DNA of 64,000 bases from Pedobacter sp. MC2016-24 (GTDB lineage: Bacteria > Bacteroidota > Bacteroidia > Sphingobacteriales > Sphingobacteriaceae), in contig NZ_JADFBX010000003.1 of NCBI RefSeq assembly GCF_015223055.1, positions 310,001-374,000 on the forward strand, in the 5' to 3' direction. Numbering within the stretch: the first letter of the stretch is position 1; every line of letters starts with the position of its first letter. Positions 7,827 through 21,854 of this stretch are shown here, piece after piece. Below the pieces are notes generated by a model that saw nothing but the letters and a program-made list of their open reading frames with translations, was not told where the DNA came from and did not search any database. The position numbers and the translations under genes were made by a program.

Positions 7827-8363
7827 ATGAAGAAGATTATATTATCACTTATGCTCTTGATTTCTTTCTCAACAGTTAAAACATATGCGCAAATGGGGGC
7901 TGCCCAAAAGGTGAGCTGGGATCTGGATAAGAGCGTAGACATCAATATGGAAGCAGACCAGGTATGGGAAATTTTTACCAATATCGATTTGCTAAAAAAA
8001 GCCTCGAACGGTTATGTAACCGAGATAATGGTTGTAGATGCCAATATGCCTGTATCCAGAAAGATTGCTTTTGCAAATGGTGGAAGCCGCTTGGAAAACA
8101 TTACGCAACAGGAAGCGCACAATAAACTGATTGCCATAGATTTTGCGGACAGTAATTTACCTAAGGGCATCAAATCTGCACAATATGCGATATTTATCAA
8201 AGCTAAAGACAACAAAACAAATGTAACCTGGAGAGGCTTGGTGAAAGGTGATACCGAAGCAAAAAAAGCTCTTGTTGCGCAATTGATGGCTGAATTTGAC
8301 AGCTATGCTTCAGGTTTGGATCAAATGACGAAGAAAGTAATTCCGGCTGCAAAGTTAAATTAA
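7827..8363 (+). CDS. Exported SRPBCC (START/polyketide-cyclase-like) protein
   Basis: 178 residues. Signal peptide ends near TYAQ (residue 22). The mature part begins KVSWDLDKSVDINMEADQVW, then a helix and an antiparallel sheet (NVTWRGLVKG) and a long C-terminal helix (~150-170), which is the SRPBCC ligand-pocket order. Most SRPBCC proteins are cytoplasmic; this one is predicted to be exported. It has no Cys. It is the last gene of the SusCD unit (14 bp after the TlpA gene) and is followed by a strong terminator. It may bind a hydrophobic small molecule in the periplasm; the ligand is unknown. Confidence 0.72.
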   Translation: MKKIILSLMLLISFSTVKTYAQMGAAQKVSWDLDKSVDINMEADQVWEIFTNIDLLKKASNGYVTEIMVVDANMPVSRKIAFANGGSRLENITQQEAHNKLIAIDFADSNLPKGIKSAQYAIFIKAKDNKTNVTWRGLVKGDTEAKKALVAQLMAEFDSYASGLDQMTKKVIPAAKLN

Positions 8364-8392
8364 GTGGGTAGGAATGTCAGCCTGAATTCAAG

Positions 8393-8451
8393 CTGACAAA
8401 ATAAAAAAGTCTGAATCATGATGAATGATTCAGACTTTTTTATTTTGTCAG
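8393..8451. terminator. Long perfect inverted repeat, bidirectional terminator-like
   Basis: Arms 8393-8419 and 8425-8451 are perfectly complementary over 27 bp around a 5-nt loop (GATGA). The core arm contains AAAAAAGTCTGAATCAT, so there is a T run on the 3' side on both strands. It starts 29 bp after the SRPBCC stop. A second small hairpin overlaps it: GTCAGC at 8376-8381 can pair with GCTGAC at 8392-8397, competing with the outer end of the long stem. Confidence 0.88.
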
Positions 8452-8575
8452 TTTTGTAACGCTAAAAGTCAGTTCTGTTTGGTTTCTTTTAGGGAGATTT
8501 ACATCGTAAAGCAAGCTTGTTTCTCTTTGCGGTTTTTGCAAAGTCGTAATTAGATATTATTTTAATAACAGCTAT

Positions 8576-8639: not shown

Positions 8640-10109
8640 ATGTTTTTGATTCGTTTTCGCTCTCCTGGGTCGCGTCTAGTTCGCGGCCTTGTTTTACCCT
8701 TCCTGTTGGCCATTTTTTTGCCGGCTACATTGTCTGCAAATTATAATGACAATACACCACGACCCATTACGATCTGTTCTGGTGCCAGTATCCTGATTCT
8801 GGGAGATCCGCTAATCATTGCTCCGGGTAATTACACCTGGGAAATGTTGCAGAATGGGGTATGGGTAACTGCGCCGGGAACAAACAATACTACGGATTAT
8901 CTGGCATCTTCTCTTTTAAACGCAAGTAATGTGGATGTGGTTTATAACCTGAGGCGGCGGATGACCGTTTTGGCCTTGCCAGTTTACGACTCTTATTATA
9001 TGGTGACCGTGCAGCCCATTCTGCCAATTCTAAATAACATCATTACCGCACCTGCAATTGCCATTTTTTGCGGGACGGCTAATCCGACAACCATCAATGG
9101 TTCGATTCCCTCCAGTGGCAATTCTACATTTATTTACCAGTGGCAAAGTTCAGTCGACAACATTAGCTTTAGCAACATCAATGGTGCAAATGCCAAAGAC
9201 TATACACCTGGGTCACTGAGCAGCACGGTTCATTTTCGTAGAATTGCCATCAGCGGAGGCTGTGGGCTCACATCGACAAGTAATGTGGTGACGATGACAG
9301 TTTCTGCGCTCCCAACATCCCCAGAGGTGACGGATACCAAATTGAGTATCTGTGCAGGTACTGCTGCAGCTCTGAAGATTAAAAATCCCCTGCCGGGATT
9401 GGTTTATAAATGGTACGATTCGTCGGCTAAGACTAATTTGCTGTTTACAGGGGAAACCTATTTGACTGATGTGCTGAACCAAAGCAAAACGTATTATGCA
9501 GAGAGTGGCAATGGTACCTGTACCAGTACGACCATGCAACAGGTAGAAGTAGAGGTTATGCCACGCTTGACGAACATAACGGTAACTGCGGAGGTAATGA
9601 GCGCGAGCAGCATGACTTTTAGATGGAACGGAGTTGCGGGGGCTACCGCTTACCAGATTAGTATGGACAATGGTTTGACTTTTATTGATCCGAGTTCGGG
9701 AAAATTGGGCTTAAGTCATACCGTGACCGGGATGAAAGGTAAACAGTCGGTTGCAGTTCAGGTGAAAGCCATCGGTGTACTTGCTTGCCAGGAAAGCAAT
9801 TCTACGAAGTTGAATGCACAAACGCCAAGTGAATATGACGATATCTATGTACCCAATGCTTTTACCCCTAATGGGGATGGTAAAAATGATGTCCTGTATG
9901 TACGTAGCGAAACGATAAAAAGCCTGAGCTTTTACATTTACAGTCAGTGGGGGGAGCAAATTTTTTATTCCAACAGCGTATCGGTGGGCTGGGACGGGAA
10001 TTACAAAGGCAGTCGGCAGCCGGTAGGTGTATATGTATATTACCTGAAGGCCATTATGGAAAACGGACGGGAATTGAATAAAAAAGGAACCATAACGCTA
10101 ATCAAATGA
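8640..10109 (+). CDS. Surface protein with gliding-motility-type (T9SS type B) C-terminal sorting domain
   Basis: 489 residues. The N-terminus has a basic stretch then a hydrophobic signal segment ending near LSANYN (~35). The middle holds Ser/Thr-rich Ig-like repeats with paired Cys, and a fibronectin-III-like segment (~315-385). The last ~90 residues are the CHU_C/TIGR04131-type domain: VPNAFTPNGDGKND, then WGEQIF, GWDGNYKG, and PVGVYVYYLKA. That domain directs export by the type IX secretion system and usually needs a partner PorP/SprF barrel, which is the next gene and overlaps it by 4 bp. It is short compared with giant adhesins of the SprB type. Confidence 0.88.
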   Translation: MFLIRFRSPGSRLVRGLVLPFLLAIFLPATLSANYNDNTPRPITICSGASILILGDPLIIAPGNYTWEMLQNGVWVTAPGTNNTTDYLASSLLNASNVDVVYNLRRRMTVLALPVYDSYYMVTVQPILPILNNIITAPAIAIFCGTANPTTINGSIPSSGNSTFIYQWQSSVDNISFSNINGANAKDYTPGSLSSTVHFRRIAISGGCGLTSTSNVVTMTVSALPTSPEVTDTKLSICAGTAAALKIKNPLPGLVYKWYDSSAKTNLLFTGETYLTDVLNQSKTYYAESGNGTCTSTTMQQVEVEVMPRLTNITVTAEVMSASSMTFRWNGVAGATAYQISMDNGLTFIDPSSGKLGLSHTVTGMKGKQSVAVQVKAIGVLACQESNSTKLNAQTPSEYDDIYVPNAFTPNGDGKNDVLYVRSETIKSLSFYIYSQWGEQIFYSNSVSVGWDGNYKGSRQPVGVYVYYLKAIMENGRELNKKGTITLIK

Positions 10110-11104
10110 AAGAGTTTATCTTAACGGTATTGGCCATGCTATTGATGTTTTGTGCCATTAGAGTAAATGCACAGGTCGATCCACATTTTTCACAATATTA
10201 TGCTTATCCATTATGGCTAAACCCGGCATTGACTGGTGTGGTGGATGGTAATGCAAGGCTGACAGCCAATTATAAAGACCAGTGGACTGGTCTGGATAAC
10301 GGTTTTAAAACCGTAGCTATTTCCGGGGATTTCAGAACTTCGGATAAGATGGCCCTGGGTTTCAATATCCTGGATCAGAAAGCAGGTGCTGCAGGTTACA
10401 ATTACTTGTCTGGTTACGGCTCTTTTGCTTACCAGGTTCCGGTCTCAGCCAATGGCTACCATAAACTGAGTTTTGGTGTGCAGGCGGGTTTAATTTACCG
10501 CGGGATTGATGTAAATAAACTGCAAATGGACGATCAGTACAATCCGACGCTGGGTTACGATCCGGGGATGGCTAGTGGAGAGAACTTTACAAGCACATCT
10601 GCTGCGGCATTTGATGCCAATGCGGGCGTATTTTATTATGATGGAACTCCTGCTGGAAAAGTCAATGTATTTGCTGGATTTAGTGCAGGACATTTGGCTG
10701 CTGCAAAGGATCCTTTTGCCAATGGCGGAATGGATAGTAAAATTCCGATGCGCTATACCTTTCATGGTGGTTTGCGTTTATTTGCGGGTGATTTCATGGA
10801 TTTGACACCACACGTGATCTACATGAGACAACAAAATTCGCAGTTGAAAGCTGCCGGTTTAAATGTGGAGTTTAGTCTGGATACGGATTGCAGTTTGACT
10901 TTGGGCGGTCTATATCGGCTTAAAGATGCGGCTGTAGGTAGCTTGGGTTTGAACGTGAAAAGTCTGGTGATCGGTGTAAGTTACGATTATACCACCTCCT
11001 CCTTACAGAAATCAGCCAATGTTCGCGGCGGCTATGAGGTGTCTTTGAGTTATGTATTTAAACGCCGTTTATCAGGCAGGAGCCAGGTATGTCCACGTCT
11101 TTAA
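10106..11104 (+). CDS. PorP/SprF-family T9SS outer-membrane protein
   Basis: 332 residues. Signal peptide ends near RVNAQ (residue 23), followed at once by the family hallmark DPHFSQYYAYPLWLNPALTG. The rest is a beta-barrel of the PorP/SprF type. The start codon overlaps the stop of the preceding gene (ATGA, 10106-10109) and its own stop overlaps the next start, so the three genes are translationally coupled. SprF-like proteins help attach or export type B sorted proteins, so this one probably serves the surface protein encoded just upstream. Confidence 0.92.
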   Translation: MKEFILTVLAMLLMFCAIRVNAQVDPHFSQYYAYPLWLNPALTGVVDGNARLTANYKDQWTGLDNGFKTVAISGDFRTSDKMALGFNILDQKAGAAGYNYLSGYGSFAYQVPVSANGYHKLSFGVQAGLIYRGIDVNKLQMDDQYNPTLGYDPGMASGENFTSTSAAAFDANAGVFYYDGTPAGKVNVFAGFSAGHLAAAKDPFANGGMDSKIPMRYTFHGGLRLFAGDFMDLTPHVIYMRQQNSQLKAAGLNVEFSLDTDCSLTLGGLYRLKDAAVGSLGLNVKSLVIGVSYDYTTSSLQKSANVRGGYEVSLSYVFKRRLSGRSQVCPRL

Positions 11105-13074
11105 TGAAACATGTTATGAAGAACTATATACTGATTTTGTTGGTATGCATTGCTCAGCTGGGGCTGGCACAAAATAAAATATTTGTGAAGCGTGCCGATG
11201 AGGCTTTTGCACATAAGGATTATGTGACTGCCGCTTATTATTATGATAAAGCGCTTGGTGATGAAACGGCTACACCGATCGGTAAAGTGCCTTATTTTTC
11301 AGCAAAAAGGCATAAAGCTAAAGATGGAATTGCTGATGTAACTTATCGGATGGCGGAAAGTTATCGTCTGGAACAGAATTATGTTTTTGCGGCAAAATGG
11401 TACCGTAAAGTGATGGAACAGCATGAACAGGCTTATCCATTGGCCCGCATGTGGTATGGTGACTGCCTTAGGGCCAATAATCAATTGACCGATGCGGTTA
11501 ACCAGCTACAGCTATTTGTGAGCGGCAATAAAAACAATGGAGAAAATTTGAGTTTAGGTTTGAAGGCATTGGAGACCGCCCGTTACGCGCAGGCCCAAAT
11601 GGCGCAGAAGCAACCCGTAACCATAGCCCGGATGGCTGGTGGTTTTAGTAAGGATGAAAATGATTTTGCGCTGAGCCGGAACAATGGCAAATATTGGTTT
11701 ACTGCTACGCTAGCGGAAGCGAATAATGGACATTTAAATCAGATTTATCTGAGTGGTGCCGATTCCTTATCGAAAAGGACTGCGCTTTCTTTTAAAGCGG
11801 ATCCGAAAAATCCGGTGAATTTTGGTGCGGCAAGTTTAGAGGCTACAGGTGCAAGGATGTATTTAACGCGTTGGTATCGGCAGGCCGGTAAGTTGTACGC
11901 TGGTGTTTACCTGAGCCGTTGCGTGGATGGGCGTTGGCTGGAACCACAGCGCTTGAATAGTTTTGTGAATGCCGATGGCTTTGTAGCTATGCAGCCTTTT
12001 GTAACACCTGATGGGAAAACTTTATATTTCGTGTCTGACCGACAGGGAGGCTTTGGCGGTACGGATATATGGAAGGCAGAGTTGAATATCGAAGGTTTAC
12101 CCATGAATGCGGTAAATCTGGGCGCTACGGTAAATACCAAAGCGGATGAGCAGGCTCCTTTCTATGATCCAAAAGAGCAGCGCCTGGTGTATAGCTCTAA
12201 AGGTTTTACCGGAATGGGGGGCTTTGATTTGTTTGAAAGTTTCTGGATTGGACAGGAGCATTGGAGTGTACCGCGTAACCTGGGTTATCCTTACAGTTCT
12301 ACCAAGGACGATTTACATTATTGTCCGGATGAAGAGGCGGAAGGTGTGGCATATGTAAGTTCTGACCGGGAGTCAGACTGCTGCCTGCATGTATTCAGAC
12401 TGCATTATACAAAACCTGAGCGCGTGATTGCTTCGGCTACATTAACCGGTGTGGTGCTCGATTGTGATACGCAAAATCCATTGGCAGGGGTAGAGGTTAG
12501 TTTAAAAGATCTGACAAGCCGCAAAGCTGACCTGGTGTTGAGTTCAGGCACCGGCCGTTATGATTTTAAAATACTGCTGAACCGTGCTTATGAATTGCGC
12601 CTGGAGAAGTCTGGATATTTTGCTAAAGTAATGGTTTTGCCCGCCCTGGCCGTATTTAAGACCGATACCTTGCTGAATCCCGAAATTTGTCTGAAAATGT
12701 TTGTGGTAGATAAGCCGATTGTGATTGAAAACATATTGTATGATTTCAATAAAGCGGTACTAAAGCCTGCATCGTTTGTGGTACTGGATGAATTGGTGAA
12801 TGTTCTGGAAATTAATCCTAAAATCAGAATAGAACTGAGTGCACATACCGATTCCATGGGTCCTGACTGGTATAACCAAAAATTATCACAGCAGAGGGCA
12901 CAGTCTTGTGTAGACTATATTTTGTCTAAGGGAATTGCTGCAGACCGGATACTGGCAAAAGGTTATGGTGAGAGCATGCCCATTGCAGCGAATACCTTAC
13001 CTGATGGAAAGGATCATAAAGAAGGTCGAAAGCTAAACCGTAGGACAGAATTTAAGGTGTTGAAGGCGAATTGA
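11104..13074 (+). CDS. PorE-like OmpA-family protein (TPR, propeller, CRD, OmpA)
   Basis: About 656 residues from ATG 11104, which overlaps the PorP stop (TAATG); ATG 11116 or 11089 are alternatives. Order: signal peptide, TPR-like helices (~25-160), a WD40/PD40 propeller with repeats such as DGKTLYFVSDRQGGFGGTDI (~175-440), a carboxypeptidase-regulatory-like domain (~450-520), and an OmpA C-terminal peptidoglycan-binding domain with SAHTDSMG and NRRTEF. This is the domain order described for PorE of Porphyromonas gingivalis, which links T9SS outer-membrane parts to peptidoglycan. It probably anchors the PorP-like barrel. The last 23 bp overlap the minus-strand gene ending at 13052. Confidence 0.9.
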   Translation: MKHVMKNYILILLVCIAQLGLAQNKIFVKRADEAFAHKDYVTAAYYYDKALGDETATPIGKVPYFSAKRHKAKDGIADVTYRMAESYRLEQNYVFAAKWYRKVMEQHEQAYPLARMWYGDCLRANNQLTDAVNQLQLFVSGNKNNGENLSLGLKALETARYAQAQMAQKQPVTIARMAGGFSKDENDFALSRNNGKYWFTATLAEANNGHLNQIYLSGADSLSKRTALSFKADPKNPVNFGAASLEATGARMYLTRWYRQAGKLYAGVYLSRCVDGRWLEPQRLNSFVNADGFVAMQPFVTPDGKTLYFVSDRQGGFGGTDIWKAELNIEGLPMNAVNLGATVNTKADEQAPFYDPKEQRLVYSSKGFTGMGGFDLFESFWIGQEHWSVPRNLGYPYSSTKDDLHYCPDEEAEGVAYVSSDRESDCCLHVFRLHYTKPERVIASATLTGVVLDCDTQNPLAGVEVSLKDLTSRKADLVLSSGTGRYDFKILLNRAYELRLEKSGYFAKVMVLPALAVFKTDTLLNPEICLKMFVVDKPIVIENILYDFNKAVLKPASFVVLDELVNVLEINPKIRIELSAHTDSMGPDWYNQKLSQQRAQSCVDYILSKGIAADRILAKGYGESMPIAANTLPDGKDHKEGRKLNRRTEFKVLKAN

Positions 13075-13267
13075 TGTGGAGATTTTCGATCTTTACATAG
13101 GTTTTCTTTCCGCAGGAATCGCATTTGTAACGTCTTACGTTTGACCTTAAAATGTATTTAACTACAAAGCTTCTGGCTACCCTGGTATTCAGGACTCCGT
13201 TTTTACATTTTGGGCATCTGCTATAACTTGTTACGGTTTTAATCCAGGTATTCTCTGATTTTTCCAA
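13052..13267 (-). CDS. Small zinc-ribbon protein, CxxC-x27-CxxC
   Basis: 71 residues from TTG at 13267, the only usable start before an in-frame stop upstream. It has CPKC and CDSC separated by 27 residues, a basic middle, and KK just after the second pair. It matches the small protein at 15960-16157 in spacing and in the R-x-x-R-(S/G)-(F/Y) pattern between the Cys pairs. Four Cys in this layout suggest a zinc-binding ribbon. It runs divergently from the sugar transferase at 13603 and its 3' end overlaps the PorE-like gene. Function unknown; a regulatory or scaffold role is only a guess. Confidence 0.6.
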   Translation of the reverse strand: MEKSENTWIKTVTSYSRCPKCKNGVLNTRVARSFVVKYILRSNVRRYKCDSCGKKTYVKIENLHINSPSTP

Positions 13268-13602
13268 CGTTTGATTTACTTTAATATTGTTAATAAGGTT
13301 TCACATTTTTCACGGTAGTTAAATGTCTGCTTTTACAAGTAATTCTCATATTGGGGATGATGCTATAAAGGTGCAATAAAATATTTGTTTTTTAGAATAA
13401 GTTATTGTTAAAATAAAATGTTGGGGCTTTTTTTACTCTCTTATCTCGTTTTCGATGCTTTAAAAAGAGTAGTGTGGTTTTTATTTATAATATGTTAATG
13501 ATTATTTAACTGATTTGGTTATTTTTTTATTAATTGTACTATTTTATTGTCTGTTACGTTCATTATTGGGTATATTTGTTTAGTTCCTAGTTTTATTTGT
13601 AT
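13268..13602. other. AT-rich divergent intergenic region
   Basis: 335 bp between the minus-strand zinc-ribbon gene and the first sugar transferase. It is very T-rich on the plus strand. The only clear signal is the promoter at 13547-13578. Short ORFs inside it (up to ~18 codons) look random. No repeat array or RNA gene was recognised. Confidence 0.6.
13547..13578 (+). promoter_or_regulatory. Bacteroidota-type promoter of sugar transferase 1
   Basis: TTG at 13547-13549, 21-nt spacer, TATATTTG at 13571-13578, which fits the Bacteroidota sigma-A pattern TTG...TAnnTTTG. Transcription would start near 13585, about 18 nt before ATG 13603, so the leader is short. Confidence 0.55.
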
Positions 13603-15000
13603 ATGCAGACACGTTATTTATACCTCTTGCGATATATTTTGCCGATTACAGATGTTCTAATGCTGAATCTGGTGTATTTTTCGGCATATTATATTACGAA
13701 TTATTTTGGAAAGTTTGTTTCTTATGAGTTGTTGCAACACTATGTTGTGGTTTGCAATTTGATCTGGGTGTTTAATGCACTGTTTTTTGGATTGTACTCT
13801 GAATATGGTGCAAGGCGTCTGGAACGCATTTATAGAGGAACCTGGCGCAGTGTGCTTTCGCATTTTATTTTATTCTCTGTTTATTTATTGTTTCAGAAAG
13901 ATGTAGAGTTTTCCCGTACTTTTCTGCTTGTATTTTATATTTTATTGGCGGGTTGTTTTGTGCTGAATCGATTTATTGGGACAGCCATCCAGTTTTTACT
14001 CATCAATAAATTTAATGTGACTAAAAAAGTTGCTGTAATGGGCGCAAATCAAACTGGGAGCCGGTTGGCGGAGTACCTTGGTAAGCAACGCAATGTTGAT
14101 TTTTATGGATTTATAGCAAATGCCAATAAGGACAGTCTTTTTAGCGACGAAACGGGCTTGCTTTCTGATCTTGCCATTTCTGAGATGGAGCGTGCTGCGG
14201 CTGCTGGTGTTCAGGATTTATATGTTTCTGTACCTCCTGAGCGCATGTCTAAAATTCATACACTGGTTAGGGAAGCAGACAGGCAATGTTTGCGCCTCAA
14301 ATTTATTCCGGACATTGCAGGTTCCCTGGCGGCACCTTATACCATCAGCTATATGGGGGGCGAGTTTCCAATTATTACCTTGCGTCACGAGCCATTGGAG
14401 ATCATGAGTAACCGATTTAAAAAGCGTGCCTTTGATTTGGTGTTTAGCAGTTTGGTGATTGTTTTTTTGTTGAGCTGGCTATTGCCGATTATTGCTATAC
14501 TGATAAAAATGGAAAGTAAAGGCCCTGTGTTTTTTAAGCAATTGCGCAGCGGACGTAACGACGAACCTTTTTGGTGCCTCAAATTCAGAAGTATGCGGAT
14601 GAACAGCGAAAGTGGTAAAAAGCAGGCAACAAAGGACGATGACCGGATTACTCGGATTGGTCGGTTTTTACGGAAAACGAGTATGGATGAATTGCCGCAG
14701 TTTTTTAATGTATTTTATGGTAGTATGACTGTGGTTGGGCCAAGGCCACATATGCTTAGTCATACCGAGCAATATAAAGCCATCATCAGCCAGTTTATGG
14801 TGCGTCATTTCATGAAACCGGGTATAACTGGCTGGGCGCAGGTTAACGGTTTGCGTGGAGAGACAAAGGCTGATGGGGCAATGGAAAGAAGGGTGGAGTA
14901 TGACATCTGGTACCTCGAAAACTGGACCGGCATGCTGGATGTGAAGATCATTTTTATGACCATCATCAATGTCTTTCGCGGTGAAGATAATGCTTATTAA
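13603..15000 (+). CDS. Polyprenyl-phosphate sugar-1-phosphate transferase 1 (WcaJ-like)
   Basis: 465 residues from ATG 13603 (a TTG two codons earlier aligns with the ATG of its paralogue). The N-terminal third has four to five membrane segments, the middle a Rossmann-like CoA-binding-type fold with GANQTGSRLAEYL, the C-terminal ~190 residues the bacterial sugar transferase domain with KFRSMR, DELPQFFNVF, GPRPHM, PGITGWAQVNG and LENWTG. The family moves a sugar phosphate from a nucleotide sugar to undecaprenyl phosphate, the first step of exopolysaccharide or glycan assembly. It converges with the PAS-AraC gene, 2 bp apart. Two close paralogues lie downstream. Confidence 0.9.
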   Translation: MQTRYLYLLRYILPITDVLMLNLVYFSAYYITNYFGKFVSYELLQHYVVVCNLIWVFNALFFGLYSEYGARRLERIYRGTWRSVLSHFILFSVYLLFQKDVEFSRTFLLVFYILLAGCFVLNRFIGTAIQFLLINKFNVTKKVAVMGANQTGSRLAEYLGKQRNVDFYGFIANANKDSLFSDETGLLSDLAISEMERAAAAGVQDLYVSVPPERMSKIHTLVREADRQCLRLKFIPDIAGSLAAPYTISYMGGEFPIITLRHEPLEIMSNRFKKRAFDLVFSSLVIVFLLSWLLPIIAILIKMESKGPVFFKQLRSGRNDEPFWCLKFRSMRMNSESGKKQATKDDDRITRIGRFLRKTSMDELPQFFNVFYGSMTVVGPRPHMLSHTEQYKAIISQFMVRHFMKPGITGWAQVNGLRGETKADGAMERRVEYDIWYLENWTGMLDVKIIFMTIINVFRGEDNAY

Positions 15001-15002
15001 GC

Positions 15003-15764
15003 TTAGAGCATGTCGTTAATGTCGTAGCCGTTGATTTGCTTGAATAGTTTTCTGAAATACGATGGGGTTTCGAAGCCTGAGGCATAAGCAACTTCGCTGA
15101 TGGTTCGGTATTTTCCGGATTCAATAGCTTCTTTTGCAATCTGCAGCCTGATTTGCCGGATGAAAGCGTTAGGAGTTAAGTTAAGCAGGCTTTTAATCCG
15201 GCGATGGAGTTGTCTTTCGCTGATGGCAAGCTCATCACTGATGTTCTGAATATTGAGATCTGATTTTCCCGCGTTTTTTCGGATCAGGTTTTCGAATTCC
15301 TGCAGCCAGACTTTGTCAGACGTTGAGGCAATTTGTTCGTGATTTTCTGTATGCAGGGGCTTTTCTGCCGGTTTTTTCTTTGCGCTGATGTTTTTGGCAA
15401 TCGCAAATATAGTTTTGTCTCTTTCAATGGGAATAGAGGTCCAGGATAGCCATACGGTTTCCCCGTTTTTTGTCATGTACCTGTTTTCGAAATTGATCAG
15501 GTGCTTCCCTGAGCGCACATTGTTGCGGCTATTGTTGGTCATGCCCTGATCCTCGGGGTGCACAAAAGAATTGATTGGCCTGGACATGAGTTCTTCATTG
15601 GTATAACCTAAGGTTTTGGAGACCGCAGGATTGATTTTTCTGAAGTATCCGTCATAGCCAGCGATGCAAATCAGATCGGGCGAGAGTTCGAAAAAGTATT
15701 CAAGGTCGAATACCTTTTCTGAATTGGGTTTGTCCGTAGGGTCTTCTTTCTTTTCTGGAAACAT
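15003..15764 (-). CDS. PAS-domain AraC-family transcriptional regulator
   Basis: 253 residues. Residues ~20-130 form a PAS sensor domain (FFELSPDLICIAGYDGYFRK, then a PAC-like tail ending in FAIAKNISAKK). Residues ~150-253 are an AraC/HTH_18 DNA-binding domain with two helix-turn-helix units (ISERQLHRRIKSLLNLTPN and ISEVAYASGFETPSYFRKLF). No transmembrane segment, so it senses an intracellular cue. It sits between sugar transferases 1 and 2, divergent from the zinc-ribbon/transferase-2 unit, and is the obvious candidate to regulate this cluster. That role is inference; its ligand is unknown. Confidence 0.88.
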   Translation of the reverse strand: MFPEKKEDPTDKPNSEKVFDLEYFFELSPDLICIAGYDGYFRKINPAVSKTLGYTNEELMSRPINSFVHPEDQGMTNNSRNNVRSGKHLINFENRYMTKNGETVWLSWTSIPIERDKTIFAIAKNISAKKKPAEKPLHTENHEQIASTSDKVWLQEFENLIRKNAGKSDLNIQNISDELAISERQLHRRIKSLLNLTPNAFIRQIRLQIAKEAIESGKYRTISEVAYASGFETPSYFRKLFKQINGYDINDML

Positions 15765-15898
15765 TGAATTGTAAATGTAGTCAATTATTGATTTGCCTTA
15801 TACAAAAAATTGGATGAAATGCGCAAATTACCTGCTATTGGGTATTTTTATGTCAGTTTGGTTATTGAAAATGGCAGTTTTGTTTTTGTATTATTAGT

Positions 15899-15906
15899 TA
15901 ACTTTG
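15899..15906 (+). promoter_or_regulatory. Candidate -7 box for zinc-ribbon/transferase-2 unit
   Basis: TAACTTTG matches TAnnTTTG. The nearest TTG upstream (15880-15882) gives a 16-nt spacer, slightly short. Transcription from here would give a ~47-nt leader to ATG 15960. Confidence 0.4.
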
Positions 15907-15959
15907 TTGCATAATATTTTCTACCTGGATAAATATTTTATTTAGCTAAATTTTTGTTC

Positions 15960-16157
15960 ATGACTTCATTCGTTTCAAATTCAGAACCTAAGTCGCAGGT
16001 TTATAATCACCTGCATTGCCGTTATTGTGGTGCTGTCGGTCTTGATCGCATTCCTAGAGGGTATTTGGCCAAAACAGTTTTCGTGTGGCTGCCATTACAG
16101 CATTTCATTTGTTATCGCTGCTTGAAAAAACAATATAAGTTCCAACACGCAAAATAA
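15960..16157 (+). CDS. Small zinc-ribbon protein, CxxC-x27-CxxC, co-transcribed with transferase 2
   Basis: 65 residues from ATG 15960 (a TTG two codons earlier is also in frame). CRYC and CYRC are separated by 27 residues, the same spacing as in the minus-strand protein at 13052-13267, and KK follows the second pair in both. The segment between is more hydrophobic (VFVWLPLQHFI) than in its relative. The gene ends 11 bp before the second sugar transferase and is on the same strand, so the two are almost certainly one transcript. I do not recognise the family. Zinc binding is likely; its role in glycan synthesis is unknown. Confidence 0.65.
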   Translation: MTSFVSNSEPKSQVYNHLHCRYCGAVGLDRIPRGYLAKTVFVWLPLQHFICYRCLKKQYKFQHAK

Positions 16158-16168
16158 TATTTCGTTAA

Positions 16169-17572
16169 ATGATTTTGCAGACCCGTTATTTGTATATTTT
16201 GCGTTATGTATTGCCAATTGCAGATATACTAACACTTAATCTGGTTTATTTTCTTTGGCTTTATGGTCTTGAATTTACATCCGTATCTGCTGGAATTGAT
16301 TTTTTGCGCCGTGATCTGGTGGTTTGCAATTTAGTCTGGTTATTTGCTGCATTGTATTTTGGTTTATATGCCGCGCATGAGTATGGGCGTTTAGAGCAGA
16401 TTTATCGCTGTACCTGGAGGACTGTAGTTATGCATGCTTTGCTTTTTGTGGCTTATCTTTTTTTACAGCATGATTTAAAGTCTTTAGGCATATCCATGTT
16501 GATTTTGTACGCCTTATTGTCTTTTGCCTTCATTTTAAGCAGGTTTATTGGGACTGCCATTCAGTTCTTGCTGATTCATAAATTTAATGCGAGTAAAAGA
16601 GTGGCTGTAATGGGTGGCAATGCAACGGGAGCCAGGCTTGCAGATTATTTAAAGGGGCAGCGGAATATTGACTTTTATGGTTTTATACGTGACAACAATA
16701 AAGATGGTTTGTTTAACGACGATGAGTTTCACCTGGATGAACTGGCTTTGGTAGAAATGCAGCTTGCTGCAACTGAAGGTGTAGAAGATTTATATGTAGC
16801 GGTTCCGCCTGATCGGATGGCCAAAATGCATACCCTGATCCATGAGGCAGATAAGTATTGTCTGCGGCTTAAATTTGTTCCTGACATTGCAGGAGCTCTG
16901 GCTGCACCTTATCAGATCAGCTACATGGGCGGGGAATTTCCTATCATTACCTTGAGGGAAGAGCCGATGGAACTGATGTCTAATCGTTTCAAAAAGCGGG
17001 CCTTTGATTTGGTGTTTAGCAGTCTGGTGATTGTTTTTGTGCTGACCTGGTTATTTCCTGTAATCGCTTTATTGATTAAATTGGAGAGCAAAGGTCCGGT
17101 GTTGTTCCGGCAACTGAGGAGCGGACGTAATGATGAGCCTTTTTGGTGTTTTAAATTTAGAAGTATGCGGTTGAATACAGATAGTGAACGGAAGCAGGCT
17201 GTAAGAGGGGATGATCGAATTACCGCTATCGGCGCTTTCCTGAGAAAAACCAGTCTGGATGAAATGCCTCAGTTTTTAAATGTGTTTTTAGGTAGCATGT
17301 CTGTGGTAGGGCCAAGGCCGCATATGCTGAGTCACACGGAGGCTTATAAGGCGGTCATCGACCAGTTTATGGTCAGGCATTTTATGAAACCGGGCATTAC
17401 TGGCTGGGCACAGGTTAATGGTTGTCGGGGGGAAACCAAAGAAGATGGGGCAATGGAGGAGCGCGTGAAACATGATGTCTGGTATCTGGAAAACTGGACG
17501 GGGATGCTGGACGTGAAAATCATTTTCATGACGATTATCAATATGTTTAAAGGAGATACCAATGCCTTTTGA
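16169..17572 (+). CDS. Polyprenyl-phosphate sugar-1-phosphate transferase 2 (WcaJ-like)
   Basis: 467 residues, clearly paralogous to the protein at 13603 along its whole length: it begins MILQTRYLYILRYVLPIAD, has the same membrane N-terminus, a Rossmann-like VMGGNATGARLADYL, and the catalytic C-terminal domain with KFRSMRLN, DEMPQFLNVF, GPRPHM, PGITGWAQVNG and LENWTG. All signature residues of the sugar transferase domain are kept, so it should be active. It is preceded by a small zinc-ribbon gene 11 bp upstream. Followed by a hairpin terminator ~140 bp downstream. Two near-identical catalytic domains suggest duplication within the locus. Confidence 0.9.
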   Translation: MILQTRYLYILRYVLPIADILTLNLVYFLWLYGLEFTSVSAGIDFLRRDLVVCNLVWLFAALYFGLYAAHEYGRLEQIYRCTWRTVVMHALLFVAYLFLQHDLKSLGISMLILYALLSFAFILSRFIGTAIQFLLIHKFNASKRVAVMGGNATGARLADYLKGQRNIDFYGFIRDNNKDGLFNDDEFHLDELALVEMQLAATEGVEDLYVAVPPDRMAKMHTLIHEADKYCLRLKFVPDIAGALAAPYQISYMGGEFPIITLREEPMELMSNRFKKRAFDLVFSSLVIVFVLTWLFPVIALLIKLESKGPVLFRQLRSGRNDEPFWCFKFRSMRLNTDSERKQAVRGDDRITAIGAFLRKTSLDEMPQFLNVFLGSMSVVGPRPHMLSHTEAYKAVIDQFMVRHFMKPGITGWAQVNGCRGETKEDGAMEERVKHDVWYLENWTGMLDVKIIFMTIINMFKGDTNAF

Positions 17573-17902
17573 TGGCTGTGTAAGTAAATTAATCCTGGTT
17601 TAACATATTTGTATTCAAATTTAACATGATTAGGTATGAAGTAAGTGCTTTTTTTTAGTATATAGGCCGTTTATTTCTTATATGTTGCTGATAGTTAATG
17701 TCGAATTATTTAAAATACCTCATAGTAGGTATTTTTTTGACATTAATTTTTCTCAAATTTGTAGCATTAATTTCAGTGTTTGAGATTAAGGAAATAAATT
17801 AACTCTGTTTTGATATCATTATCCTATATTCGGACTGTTACTAAAGAGATTTTATCTCCACGGAATAAATATGATGCGGAATATTACAACCAGTCAACCT
17901 CG
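17573..17902. other. Intergenic region between transferases 2 and 3
   Basis: 330 bp. It holds the terminator at 17712-17738, directly followed by TTGACA (17737-17742), which could be the -33 element of a promoter for transferase 3. The last ~93 bp (from TTG 17810) are open in the frame of transferase 3 and may be coding if that gene starts earlier. Confidence 0.5.
17712..17738 (+). terminator. Intrinsic terminator after transferase 2
   Basis: Perfect 9-bp stem AAAATACCT (17712-17720) with AGGTATTTT (17727-17735), 6-nt loop, and a T run extending to 17738. It separates transferase 2 from transferase 3. Confidence 0.7.
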
Positions 17903-19297
17903 ATGACAGAAAAATATGGTACCTATTATAAGATCATCGGTGCTTTAATCGACCTGTTCATTGTCAATTTTTCTGGTTATATCGCTTACCTTCTGGTGCA
18001 TTGGCCAGTAACTACGCTGGACAGGACAAATGTGAATATGATTCATATTTTGCTGATCAATCTGATCTGGTTTAATGTGACTCAGCTGACGCGCTTGTAT
18101 CAGGATATGTTTGCTAAGGATGCGATTCCAACAATTAAACAAAGTCTGTCTTCTTTGCTTCTATTTACGGTTTCTATTATCCTGATCCTATTTTTAACAA
18201 CAGGTTTTGGCGTTTCCAGTAAACTGATTGCCTACATGATGCTGATTTTTGCACCGTCGTTTCTGATGGCTAAAATCATTTTTCTATTGTTGCGCCGCTC
18301 CAGACGCGCCAGTTTGATCAATTACACAGATATCGTAATTGTAGGTGCTGGTCCAGTTGGTGTAGAATTACATAATATTTTTGAAAACCGCCCGTTTTTG
18401 GGCTATCGTGTTGTTGGTTTTTTTGACGACAAACCGCATTTACGTGGAGATGGAATTCCAGTACTGGGTAATGTAAGTGACTGTATTGCTTATGTTAAAA
18501 AGTTTAACATCAAGGAAGTGTATTGTGCACTGCCCGATCGGGCCATCAATAAAATCAACCGACTGATGCGGGAAGCAGATCAGGAAATGGTTCGCTTCAA
18601 ACTAGTGCCGGATGTTAAGGATTATTTCAAGAAAAATGTGAATGTGAAAATGTTGGCGCACTTTCCGATCATCAGTCCGCGTGCAGAACCTTTGGAAAGT
18701 AAAAGTAACCAACTCTTTAAGCGGGTATTTGATGTAGCCTTCTCTTTATTTGTGATTGGATTTGTAATGAGTTGGTTGGTCCCGCTGATCGCATTGCTGA
18801 TCAAACTGGAGTCAAAAGGCCCAATATTTTTTAAGCAATTGCGCTCTGGTAAAGATAATGAGCCTTTCTATTGTTTGAAATTCAGAAGTATGCGGGTAAA
18901 TCAGGATTCTGATAAAACACAAGCTACCAAGAACGACAGTAGAATTACCCGTTTGGGTGCCTTTATGCGAAAAACCAGTATTGATGAATTGCCACAGTTT
19001 TTTAATGTACTAATGGGGGATATGTCAGTGGTGGGGCCCCGGCCCCACATGCTGCAGCACACCCATGAGTATTCTGCGATTATTGATCAGTTCATGGTAC
19101 GCCACCTGGTGCTGCCGGGAATAACCGGTTGGGCGCAGGTAAGCGGGCATAGGGGTGAAACCAAAGAAGAAGGAACTATGGAGGCCCGTGTGGAAGCAGA
19201 TATTTGGTATTTAGAGAATTGGTCGATGTTTTTGGATCTTAAAATTGCTTTCTTAACTGTGTGGCAAGTTTTCGCAGGGCATAAAAACGCGTATTAA
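17903..19297 (+). CDS. Polyprenyl-phosphate sugar-1-phosphate transferase 3 (WcaJ-like)
   Basis: 464 residues from ATG 17903, which matches the paralogues in length and starts just before the first membrane helix (MTEKYGTYYKIIGALIDLFI). A TTG at 17810 would add 31 hydrophilic residues. Rossmann-like IVGAGPVGVELHNIF in the middle; C-terminal sugar transferase domain with KFRSMRVN, DELPQFFNVL, GPRPHM, PGITGWAQVSGHRGET and LENWSM. It is more diverged from the other two, especially in the N-terminal half and in the motif GPVGV, so it may use a different sugar. It appears to have its own promoter. Confidence 0.9.
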   Translation: MTEKYGTYYKIIGALIDLFIVNFSGYIAYLLVHWPVTTLDRTNVNMIHILLINLIWFNVTQLTRLYQDMFAKDAIPTIKQSLSSLLLFTVSIILILFLTTGFGVSSKLIAYMMLIFAPSFLMAKIIFLLLRRSRRASLINYTDIVIVGAGPVGVELHNIFENRPFLGYRVVGFFDDKPHLRGDGIPVLGNVSDCIAYVKKFNIKEVYCALPDRAINKINRLMREADQEMVRFKLVPDVKDYFKKNVNVKMLAHFPIISPRAEPLESKSNQLFKRVFDVAFSLFVIGFVMSWLVPLIALLIKLESKGPIFFKQLRSGKDNEPFYCLKFRSMRVNQDSDKTQATKNDSRITRLGAFMRKTSIDELPQFFNVLMGDMSVVGPRPHMLQHTHEYSAIIDQFMVRHLVLPGITGWAQVSGHRGETKEEGTMEARVEADIWYLENWSMFLDLKIAFLTVWQVFAGHKNAY

Positions 19298-19483: not shown

Positions 19484-20191
19484 ATGAAAAGAAGATTTAC
19501 TATTTTGATATGTGCCGTGCTGATGCTGGTTGGAGTGCGGGTAAATGCACAAACAGATTCTACTGCTGTTGACAGTACAAAACGCAGCATTTACTATATC
19601 AGTGCGCATGCTGCAACACAGGGATTGGGTTTAGAGTTTAAATATTCGCCTTTGGCTAAGTTTAATTTCCGCGCTGGATTTAGTATCCTGCCATTGAAAA
19701 CGGATGGTGTATATAGCATTAAAGCAAATTCAACCGACATTAACCTGAAAGCTGAATTTTCAAATGCCCACCTGATGGCTGACTGGCATCCATTTTTGGA
19801 TAAACAAAACTTTGCAAGCAAGCTGATCCTGACTGCCGGTGCTGCGTATTTCTGGCAAGCTAAAGGTGATGCCATCATTACTTATAACGGAACTAGCTAT
19901 TATGGAGAGATTCCGGTAACCAGTGAAGATTTAGGTGAATTGTACGGATCTGTAAAATGGAACAAAGTTGCGCCGTATGCAGGTTTCGGTTTTGAAAATG
20001 CATTCCCAAAACATAAATTCAATTTAGGCTTTGCTTTAGGTGCTTATTATATGGGTAAACCTGATGTAACCCTAACTGGAACGAAATTGCTGACCAAAAG
20101 TAATCAAAACGAAGAGCAGCTGAGAAAGAACATGTCTGGTTACCGATTTTTACCGGTATTGCAGATTAACTTCAATTACAGCTTAAACTAA
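19484..20191 (+). CDS. Putative outer-membrane beta-barrel protein
   Basis: 235 residues. Signal peptide of 22 residues (LMLVGVRVNA before QTD), then alternating amphipathic beta-strands with aromatic girdles (FNFRAGFSILPL, APYAGFGFENAF, FNLGFALGAYYMG) and the C-terminal strand VLQINFNYSLN ending near an aromatic residue, as in outer-membrane barrels. I do not recognise a specific family. The lipoprotein gene starts 28 bp downstream and shares a terminator with it, so the two probably work together at the outer membrane. Function unknown. Confidence 0.7.
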   Translation: MKRRFTILICAVLMLVGVRVNAQTDSTAVDSTKRSIYYISAHAATQGLGLEFKYSPLAKFNFRAGFSILPLKTDGVYSIKANSTDINLKAEFSNAHLMADWHPFLDKQNFASKLILTAGAAYFWQAKGDAIITYNGTSYYGEIPVTSEDLGELYGSVKWNKVAPYAGFGFENAFPKHKFNLGFALGAYYMGKPDVTLTGTKLLTKSNQNEEQLRKNMSGYRFLPVLQINFNYSLN

Positions 20192-20219
20192 TTATCTACT
20201 TACCTCTAATTGTATCCCA

Positions 20220-21854
20220 ATGAGAACCTTTTTTAAATTATTCAGTTTTGTACTTGCACTGGGCTTTGTGTTCAATAGCTGCAAGAACCCGGCTGACAAT
20301 CTGAACATCCTTGTGGATGCAGACATCATCAAGTATAAAGCAACCTTTATTTTATCGACTTCCGACGGAACTGCGATCCCAAATGACATCACCGTTACGG
20401 CTACAGGCACGGACGCTGGTTCGATCTACGACTTTTCAGGCTCTAAAAAGATTTATGCGCCTGCAGGTGTGGCAACCATTGGTGTTGCGCCAAGTGGGGT
20501 GCCGAAAGGATCAACAAAGCTGAACTTTAACGTTGTGATTAAAGCAACCGGTTTCCTGGATAAAAACCTTCCGGTGAGCATCGAGCAAGATCAGTTTAGC
20601 CAGATCATTAAAGTGACTTTATTGAGAGCAACAACGCCTTCTCCTGCAAGTTCTGTTGTAGTAGCAGAGGTTGGTTTAGGTACTGATGGAAAAACGACAA
20701 CGTCAACCACGATCAGTACACCAGTTACAGGTACGGTTACAGAAACGACTTCAATCACAGTTCCTGCAGGTGTACAGTTTAAAGGTGCTGATGGTACCAT
20801 TTTATCTGGTGGTAACCTGAGCGCACAAGCGGTTAACTTTGATCCGACTGATCCTGCAGCATTGGCTTTATTCCCAGGCGGAAAATTAAGTGCACCAAAC
20901 ATCACTACGCCAGGTGGTACAACTGGTTCTGCGGTATTCTTGCCTGCAGGTTTTACAGACATCCAGATGTTTGTAGGTGGTGTGGAAGTGAAAAACTTTA
21001 CAACCCCGATTAACATTGGCGTTCAATTGGATCCAACGTATAAGCCACAATCTTCGGGTCAGCTTTTAAAGGCTGGTGATAAACTTGCCGTTTACAGTTA
21101 CCAGGTGAGCACAGGTCAGTTTAAATATGAAGGTCTGGCTAACGTAGCGCTGGATGCCAGCAATAAACTTGCAGCTTCTTTTACAACGGATCACTTAACT
21201 GTATTTATTGTTGGTGATGTGGTTTCTACAGCAAGTTGTACAGAACCAAACGTTACGTTTATCGCACCTTGGTTAACTGGTGGAGCTACACGCACGGTAA
21301 ATGTGGAGATTTCAAACAACGACGGTAAGGTGCTTGCAACCTCGGAGGTTTTATTAAAAGACGGATTAGCAGATAAATTCCGCGGTTTACCTCCAATACC
21401 GGTTAGATATAGAATTATTGACGTAACTACAAGCACTGTATTGGCTTCAGGATCAATCGCTGATCCTTGCGCAGGCGGTAACCTTAGCATCACAGTTGGA
21501 CAACCTGGTGGCCCTGCTATACAGAACGTAACCCTGGTGTTAAATGTAGTATGTCCTAACAAAGGACCTGTAACTCCACCTAATTTTGACATGTTCTACA
21601 AAACTGCAGGTGCTGCTGAAAGTGCTTACGTTTTATTGGGAACTGCCAATCAGGGTTTGATCAAAACTTCATTGTTGAAAGTTGGAAGTACTTATGATTT
21701 CAGGGTAACCTGGAAAAATGAAACCAAACGTGTAAATAACAGAACAATCACAGATCTGGATATGTCTACTACGGTTGGTGAAGGCTTAAACTTAGGTACA
21801 AATACCGCTTCTAACAGAGCATTATTAATTGAAGCTTGTAAAAGTTTGAACTAA
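20220..21854 (+). CDS. Large lipoprotein of unknown function
   Basis: 544 residues. Signal peptide with lipobox FNSC; lipidated Cys at residue 21. The mature protein is Thr/Ser/Gly/Pro rich and beta-strand rich (for example TGTVTETTSITVPAGVQFKG), with a segment ~290-330 that resembles a beta-sandwich and further beta domains after it. No catalytic motif is visible. Composition suggests an exposed, elongated surface lipoprotein. It is paired with the barrel gene upstream and followed by a strong terminator at 21888. Confidence 0.7.
   Translation: MRTFFKLFSFVLALGFVFNSCKNPADNLNILVDADIIKYKATFILSTSDGTAIPNDITVTATGTDAGSIYDFSGSKKIYAPAGVATIGVAPSGVPKGSTKLNFNVVIKATGFLDKNLPVSIEQDQFSQIIKVTLLRATTPSPASSVVVAEVGLGTDGKTTTSTTISTPVTGTVTETTSITVPAGVQFKGADGTILSGGNLSAQAVNFDPTDPAALALFPGGKLSAPNITTPGGTTGSAVFLPAGFTDIQMFVGGVEVKNFTTPINIGVQLDPTYKPQSSGQLLKAGDKLAVYSYQVSTGQFKYEGLANVALDASNKLAASFTTDHLTVFIVGDVVSTASCTEPNVTFIAPWLTGGATRTVNVEISNNDGKVLATSEVLLKDGLADKFRGLPPIPVRYRIIDVTTSTVLASGSIADPCAGGNLSITVGQPGGPAIQNVTLVLNVVCPNKGPVTPPNFDMFYKTAGAAESAYVLLGTANQGLIKTSLLKVGSTYDFRVTWKNETKRVNNRTITDLDMSTTVGEGLNLGTNTASNRALLIEACKSLN

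Follow-up and report, generated by a model that had tools for sequence, protein, structure and literature searches.

Small zinc-ribbon proteins beside sensor regulators and surface genes in Pedobacter sp. MC2016-24

Small one-domain zinc-finger proteins are widespread, with few assigned a role according to work on those of Haloferax, several of which are reported not to bind zinc (PMC11241148). In Haloferax volcanii, deletion of 12 of 16 zinc-finger micro-proteins resulted in a phenotype under one or more of the four conditions assayed, biofilm formation and swarming among them (PMC6562870). The closest described system is that of Brz in Halobacterium salinarum. The gene of this small zinc-finger protein immediately precedes bop in the same orientation, and Brz is required for bop mRNA to reach high levels; small zinc-finger genes are also found next to, or one gene removed from, the genes of two homologues of Bat, the companion regulator of Brz (PMC2253796). 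Here, two small proteins, designated P1 and P2, are described from a 64,000-nucleotide stretch of the genome of Pedobacter sp. MC2016-24 (positions 310,001 to 374,000 of contig NZ_JADFBX010000003.1), hereafter the window, in which they are encoded beside genes for WcaJ-like initiating sugar transferases (T1 and T2). With a probability of roughly 0.6, P2, with T2, and a surface-protein operon constitute the regulon of a PAS-AraC regulator, and the zinc ribbon tunes the transcription of surface genes in a Brz-like manner.

A tandem repeat shared by P2 and a presumed surface-protein operon

The elements on which this reading is based are located in the window as follows.

15003..15764, minus strand: PAS-AraC regulator, 253 residues (PAS_3 5.2e-16, HTH_18 1.5e-17)
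15850..15883, plus strand: tandem direct repeat ATGTCAGTTTGGT-N8-ATGGCAGTTTTGT with a 21-bp period, between the PAS-AraC gene and P2; presumed PAS-AraC site
15899..15906, plus strand: TAACTTTG, which fits the Bacteroidota -7 box and is plausible only
15960..16157, plus strand: P2, a 65-residue basic protein predicted to be a zinc ribbon, CRYC-x27-CYRC, ATG start
16169..17572, plus strand: T2, a paralogue of T1 (69% identical), 11 bp past P2
8445..8478, plus strand: second copy of the tandem repeat, which departs from the first pattern by 2 mismatches and is situated 161 bp upstream of the open reading frame (ORF) at 8640
8640..13074, plus strand: presumed operon encoding an Ig_7/CHU_C protein with a type IX secretion system (T9SS) signal, then a PorP/SprF protein and an OmpA-family protein

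The protein encoded divergently from P2 has an AraC helix-turn-helix and a sensor domain and is, therefore, an AraC-type regulator. In AraC-type operators, the half-sites are direct repeats spaced by about two turns of the helix, and the 21-bp period of the half-sites upstream of P2 fits this geometry. When the intergenic region is aligned with that of locus L201 (genome G165), ATGNCAGNTNNGT is conserved twice with the 21-bp period, and at L201, as in the window, a PAS-AraC gene (58% identical) is divergent from a P2-like gene (49%). The -7 box of Bacteroidota has the consensus TAnnTTTG, and the TTTG that would constitute the -33 box, 16 bp before TAACTTTG, sits in the second half-site; as a comparable match is present in 55 of 1514 other upstream regions, the P2 promoter is called plausible and nothing firmer. 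Scans for terminators and sigma-70 promoters returned counts no higher than those of shuffled sequences. The Pedobacter sp. MC2016-24 genome has two sites with at most two mismatches, and both are in the window (15850 and 8445-8478), where 0.05 matches would be expected by chance at three mismatches. No tandem repeat was found for P1 or T1 in the window at three mismatches beyond these two sites, and P1 is grouped with P2 by family.

The repeat recurs in relatives. The pattern defined from the window and L201 was sought at 10 further loci with an AraC-type gene adjacent to a family gene, and is present in four, always just before the family gene, with 0 mismatches at L187, 2 at L209 and 3 at L149 and L216. 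At L187, the PAS-AraC gene is convergent with the P2-like gene, on its far side, and the repeat is still positioned before the zinc-ribbon gene. The best matches at L217 and L147 (4 mismatches) are not before a family gene, those at L173 and L144 have 5 mismatches, and L205 and L127 have no match with up to 5. When 145 genomes of the genus were searched with a slightly altered pattern, at no more than one mismatch, 7 had a match, with 9 sites in all (reversed control, 0), six directly before a zinc-ribbon gene and three, that at 8445-8478 in the window among them, before genes of the family of the protein encoded at 8640; as the pattern was altered after L187, L209, L149 and L216 had been seen, only the sites in G202 and G167:C2 are new. 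The homologues of the 8640 protein encoded behind the repeat in these two genomes (loci L379 and L383) are 50% identical over 231 residues in G202 and 36% over 307 in G167 and carry Ig_7 domains; their available sequences end early, and the CHU_C comparison covers the window protein only. In G167, a PAS-AraC gene is divergent from the surface-protein gene. Across the 151 genomes of the taxonomic family there are 12 sites (reversed control, 1), of which five precede zinc-ribbon genes, three of these being new, in Mucilaginibacter, and behind hybrid kinase-AraC genes; further sites are that at 8445 in the window and one in G017. The latter (L385, about 1500-1880) is located between a PAS-AraC gene and the gene of a small, probably helical, unrelated protein.

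From the genus- and family-wide sites, the repeat goes with AraC-type sensors and with two kinds of target, zinc-ribbon and surface-protein genes, and P2 is very probably a direct target of the divergent PAS-AraC regulator. In the proposed scheme, a signal would be conveyed by PAS-AraC to the repeats at 15850 and 8445. Binding to the repeat at 15850-15883, in the P2 promoter region, would determine P2 expression and, with it, that of T2, which begins only 11 bp downstream and may be co-transcribed; through 8445-8478, the regulator would also control the CHU_C, PorP/SprF and OmpA operon. The P2 zinc ribbon most likely binds nucleic acid (or the regulator) and would thereby tune transcription of neighbouring surface genes, as Brz does for bop.

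The zinc-ribbon family and its neighbourhoods

The second small protein of the window is encoded upstream of T1.

13052..13267, minus strand: P1, a 71-residue basic protein predicted to be a zinc ribbon, CPKC-x27-CDSC, TTG start, subfamily W..Y..CP.C..G.LDTR

In a preliminary description of the window, P1 and P2 were noted to share CxxC-x27-CxxC, KK after the second Cys pair and R-x-x-R-(S/G)-(F/Y) between the pairs, and all of these are present in both ORFs at the positions described, the Cys pairs being separated by precisely 27 residues, with KK one position past the second pair and, between the pairs, RVARSF in P1 and RIPRGY in P2. Among 983 stop-to-stop frames of up to 130 residues in the window, only three have a CxxC-x20..35-CxxC pattern, and P1 and P2 are two of the three. 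BLASTP gives no alignment of P1 with P2, which are 25% identical over 60 residues, and their kinship is therefore visible solely through the family. A profile built without them, from 45 relatives that had been recruited with P1 or P2 as queries, matches P2 at 1.8e-19 and P1 at 8.8e-16, with the next best of 1040 window frames at 0.34. Where P1 has TTG, its relatives at L214 and L226 have an aligned ATG (MEK...). P1 and P2 are real ORFs of one uncatalogued zinc-ribbon family.

Among 151 genomes of the taxonomic family, searches with the single proteins found matches in 43 (P1) and 47 (P2); by profile, members were detected in 78 of the 145 Pedobacter genomes searched and in 11 of 296 of the phylum, each count including the genome of Pedobacter sp. 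MC2016-24 itself, in which there are two matches at E <= 0.001. The two ORFs are thus conserved as proteins in relatives, one of the two points by which the preliminary proposal was to be judged; the other genus most often met is Mucilaginibacter. Four Cys, two Arg and one Lys are invariant or nearly so, the core is highly basic, with a net charge averaging +9.5 and a median isoelectric point of 9.9, and the Cys-pair spacing is 27 in 112 of the 166 unique members with the pattern (187 unique members in all). By the definition of CPxCG-related small zinc-finger proteins, namely fewer than 100 residues and two Cys/His patterns that are separated by 7-40 residues, one or both of them being CPxCG-like (PMC2253796), P1, P2 and 145 of the 187 unique members fit this class in sequence, and zinc binding by P1 and P2 is predicted from their four Cys.

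In Pfam and NCBIfam, P1 (judged on the best 25 of 30 Pfam matches) and P2, the two members compared with curated cut-offs, remain under all of those given. For 45 members, Pfam gave nothing better than 7.3e-5 among the best 25 of 37 families, and NCBIfam matched two families with one member each. A search of the literature, mostly of records without full texts, turned up no published description of the family or of the tandem repeat. The best match to a solved structure by sequence, a eukaryotic zinc finger at E 0.0076, is not convincing; nor was a convincing fusion that might hint at function found, the regions of 12 kb and 16 kb containing one ORF of more than 100 residues. In the AlphaFold models, P2 and P1 share the order strand, short helix and two strands, with means of 75-82 for the core blocks, an order as expected for a zinc ribbon. 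The family is a fast-evolving one of stand-alone basic zinc ribbons, as yet uncatalogued, of the Sphingobacteriaceae group. Divergent relatives with a likely N-terminal membrane segment are encoded beside metK in other families of Bacteroidota (L331, L332 and L333).

The family is enriched beside sensor and regulator genes and in surface-polysaccharide regions. With profiles for AraC, kinase and receiver domains that were made from the sequences of this analysis rather than taken from Pfam, an AraC-type gene adjoins 15 of 147 family genes of the genus, in 12 of the 15 cases upstream and on the same strand. Such genes occupy 15 of 286 positions at one gene's distance compared with 11 of 1207 further out (Fisher p 1.2e-5) and, when sequences are clustered at 60%, adjacency is found in 11 of 35 clusters, the window included. 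In 30 mostly Mucilaginibacter loci, largely orthologous so that the counts are not independent, an AraC-type gene adjoins none of 43 family genes, and receiver-domain genes occupy 28 of 58 adjacent positions compared with 1 of 58 one position further away. All 28 come from 14 of these loci, at each of which a tandem pair of family genes, from different subfamilies, has a receiver-domain gene on both sides.

L094, L099, L101, L103, L104, L106-L108, L112-L115, L118 and L120, about 7900-8490: Mucilaginibacter tandem pairs

Of 139 12-kb regions surrounding family genes, 36 contain a polysaccharide marker, compared with 1 of 60 random regions drawn from the same contigs (Fisher p 1.4e-5). The 12 markers were two WcaJ, Gmd, two Ugd, CapD, CpsB, two Wza, Wzc, Wzz and ManC, of which seven were identified by Pfam, the two WcaJ by Pfam/NCBIfam, and Gmd, ManC and the second Ugd by eye. 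The 139 regions represent most of the 150 listed family genes, the remainder being in the window, inside those regions or unfetched, and the sole random match is on a contig of G158 that has a family gene and, a few kb away, a WcaJ-like gene. The polysaccharide bias rests on some subfamilies: a marker is present for 20 of 29 genes of the FHYQ type and 5 of 50 in the largest cluster, and for 3/3, 2/2, 2/3 and 1/3 in P1-like clusters but 0/7 in another. The mostly Mucilaginibacter loci have a marker in 1 of 30, and there is none within the 12 kb of L201. With the two window proteins entered by hand as polysaccharide-linked, 66 of the family's 147 genes in the genus are associated with a polysaccharide marker, a neighbouring regulator or both. 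At L179 (4188-6089) and L246 (4053-6089), a single polysaccharide gene (Ugd or Gmd) has a zinc-ribbon gene on each side, the two being different, which resembles the positions of P1 and P2 on either side of T1. A further group, represented by L170 and 14 other loci, is located downstream of a CobW/G3E-type GTPase gene; the sequence ATGGTAGTTTT recurs upstream of its members, and the k-mers enriched upstream of family genes seem to originate mainly from this group.

The transferases and the alternatives

Several observations weigh against the proposed regulon and the role given to the family. Neither a polysaccharide marker nor an adjacent regulator is present for 81 of the 147 family genes. 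The P1 and P2 models are of middling confidence (mean predicted local distance difference test scores of 69 and 67.5), and fold searches returned no significant match, the best being the zinc ribbon of NrdR and those of RNA polymerase. The Pedobacter sp. MC2016-24 genome has seven more sites at three mismatches (reversed pattern, 1), the second search pattern was adjusted to loci already known, and 5 of the 12 family-wide sites (reversed control, 1) are in unrelated surroundings, one with an AraC gene ~1 kb away. In a matrix scan, 7 of 192 family genes exceeded the 99th background percentile; six of these had trained the matrix, and the seventh, at L243, is without an adjacent AraC gene. The main group linked to cNMP-AraC genes is without the repeat, and with 7 of 192 family genes carrying it, other subfamilies must be controlled in some other way.

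The genes might simply accumulate in variable regions rich in regulators and surface genes, the proteins having a general task unrelated to their neighbours. Fast divergence is consistent with this (the counterparts of P1 next to T1 orthologues have ~50% identity to it, with the T1 orthologues themselves at 79-80%), as are the patchy distribution across the genus and contexts as diverse as that of the CobW-linked group (15 loci). The explanation is nevertheless unlikely, given that the AraC enrichment is limited to the immediate neighbour and that the genus-wide repeat precedes a family gene or a homologue of the 8640 protein in 9 of 9 cases. Similarly doubtful is a post-transcriptional role, in which the zinc ribbons would adjust how neighbouring genes are translated by binding to mRNA or to the ribosome; it would suit their basic character, their Arg and Lys residues that vary little or not at all, and their weak resemblance to the zinc ribbons of ribosomal proteins and RNase P, but an equally weak likeness to the ribbons of NrdR and RNA polymerase ranks somewhat higher. 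A pairing of the Spt4/NusG kind, between a small zinc protein and a NusG paralogue, was rejected, as the two NusG-family matches of the genome are on other contigs.

The preliminary description had proposed that P1 and P2 may be accessory or regulatory partners of the WcaJ-like enzymes. Besides T2, two such enzymes are encoded in the window, and all three are WcaJ-like by TIGR03023.

13603..15000, plus strand: T1, WcaJ-like initiating sugar-phosphate transferase (TIGR03023 1.9e-127, Bac_transf 9.2e-67)
17810..19297, plus strand: T3, WcaJ-like transferase, 43% identical to T1

Judged from homologues, the ATG at 13603 is the more likely start of T1. P1 is divergent from T1, and the P2 stop is 11 bp before the T2 ATG at 16169, both as previously described. 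Among the matches listed, 9 of 150 family genes are within 1 kb of a WcaJ-like gene and 12 of 150 within 5 kb, with 0.13 and 0.42 expected from gene numbers and an assumed mean genome size of 5.4 Mb; 19 partial or weak WcaJ-like matches were omitted from this count. Five of the nine close pairs are convergent, three, P1 included, are divergent, and solely P2 is in line with its transferase. Viewed from the transferases, there are 34 T1/T2-like places outside the Pedobacter sp. MC2016-24 genome, and a family gene is within 1.5 kb in 3 of the 29 that were fetched; one of the five unfetched, in G120, has a family gene ~1.5 kb away, and a fourth match near a fetched homologue (0.0061, L342) was judged spurious. 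A P1-like gene is divergent from the T1 orthologue at L214 and L226, in two other genomes, and at L018, in another genus, a family gene and a WcaJ-like gene are likewise divergent. Of the 13 closest T1 orthologues, 8 belong to genomes that have no match to the family at E <= 0.001. No T2 orthologue was found at E <= 1e-190 in 145 genomes, the matches at that level being T1-like genes, which is why no further P2-T2 pairing is seen; P2-T2 appears to be a local arrangement, with T2 probably derived from a duplication of T1. Genes for a probable outer-membrane protein and a SCKNP lipoprotein-like protein also recur beside WcaJ-like genes (19484-21854 in the window; L180, L214 and L226), and neither window gene has a Pfam match.

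The link to the transferases is therefore weak yet above chance, and it extends to surface-polysaccharide genes in general. These counts, 3 of 29 homologues and 9 of 150 listed family genes, rule out an obligate WcaJ partner, and pairing in relatives, by which the earlier proposal was to be judged, is rare. An accessory role, in which the zinc ribbons would associate as subunits with WcaJ-like transferases, or with other membrane enzymes that make polysaccharides, and control how active these are, is very improbable: the excess of close pairs, the 11-bp gap between P2 and T2 and the divergent pairs at T1 orthologues and in another genus speak for it, but few homologues have a family gene nearby, many T1 orthologues are in genomes without one, the orientations are mixed and most listed family members are elsewhere. 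The earlier proposal is in part supported: the transferase tie is only locally true, while the regulatory part gains an independent line of evidence from the AraC enrichment and the tandem repeat before P2.

On the more tentative reading given below, of a bacterial counterpart of Bat and Brz, the family would represent a general class of small local regulators of cell-surface output in the Sphingobacteriaceae. The conserved repeat ties one bacterial family of small zinc ribbons to sensor proteins and surface genes and, because of this link, provides precise, testable targets in the two window sites. It would also give a first handle on a possible Pedobacter-type coordination of polysaccharide start-up with secreted surface proteins.

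Comparison with known systems

NrdR consists of a zinc ribbon plus an ATP-cone. Its N-terminal zinc ribbon is the top structural neighbour of the P2 model, at values that are not significant (Foldseek E 0.16, probability 0.98; VIA Z 4.2, root-mean-square deviation 2.9 over 47 aligned residues). At 135-153 residues, the chains of NrdR also include a nucleotide-binding part; P1 and P2, at 65-71 residues, are without it, and with no room for a second domain their identity as NrdR was rejected. T1 to T3 are the same enzymes as those of loci for WcaJ-type undecaprenyl-phosphate glucose phosphotransferases, and most such loci examined in the genus, unlike the window, have no zinc-ribbon gene nearby. 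The Haloferax volcanii micro-proteins, of fewer than 70 residues, resemble P1 and P2 in their small size, single domain and two Cys pairs (PMC6562870, PMC11241148), and belong to a different domain of life.

The resemblance to Brz is one of form and setting. Like Brz as described in PMC2253796, P2 is a small stand-alone zinc finger of fewer than 100 residues encoded directly upstream of its neighbour, T2, in the same orientation, and, as at the Bat homologues, AraC-type regulators often adjoin the small zinc-finger gene. P1, divergent from T1, departs from the Brz position, and the tandem repeat is specific to the P2 case. Brz itself is archaeal and has a His (H52) in its second pattern, unlike P1 and P2, and its function was shown with mutants (PMC2253796), whereas that of P2 is a proposed one; failure of zinc-ligand mutants is a mark of regulators of the Brz kind. 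By this analogy, the zinc ribbons of P1 and P2 probably act as small local regulators. More tentatively, and with somewhat less confidence than an even chance would warrant, the arrangement may be a bacterial counterpart of Bat and Brz, in which AraC-type sensors of the PAS-AraC and hybrid kinase-AraC types, through one conserved tandem operator, drive a dedicated zinc-ribbon co-regulator, T9SS surface operons and, here, an initiating transferase.

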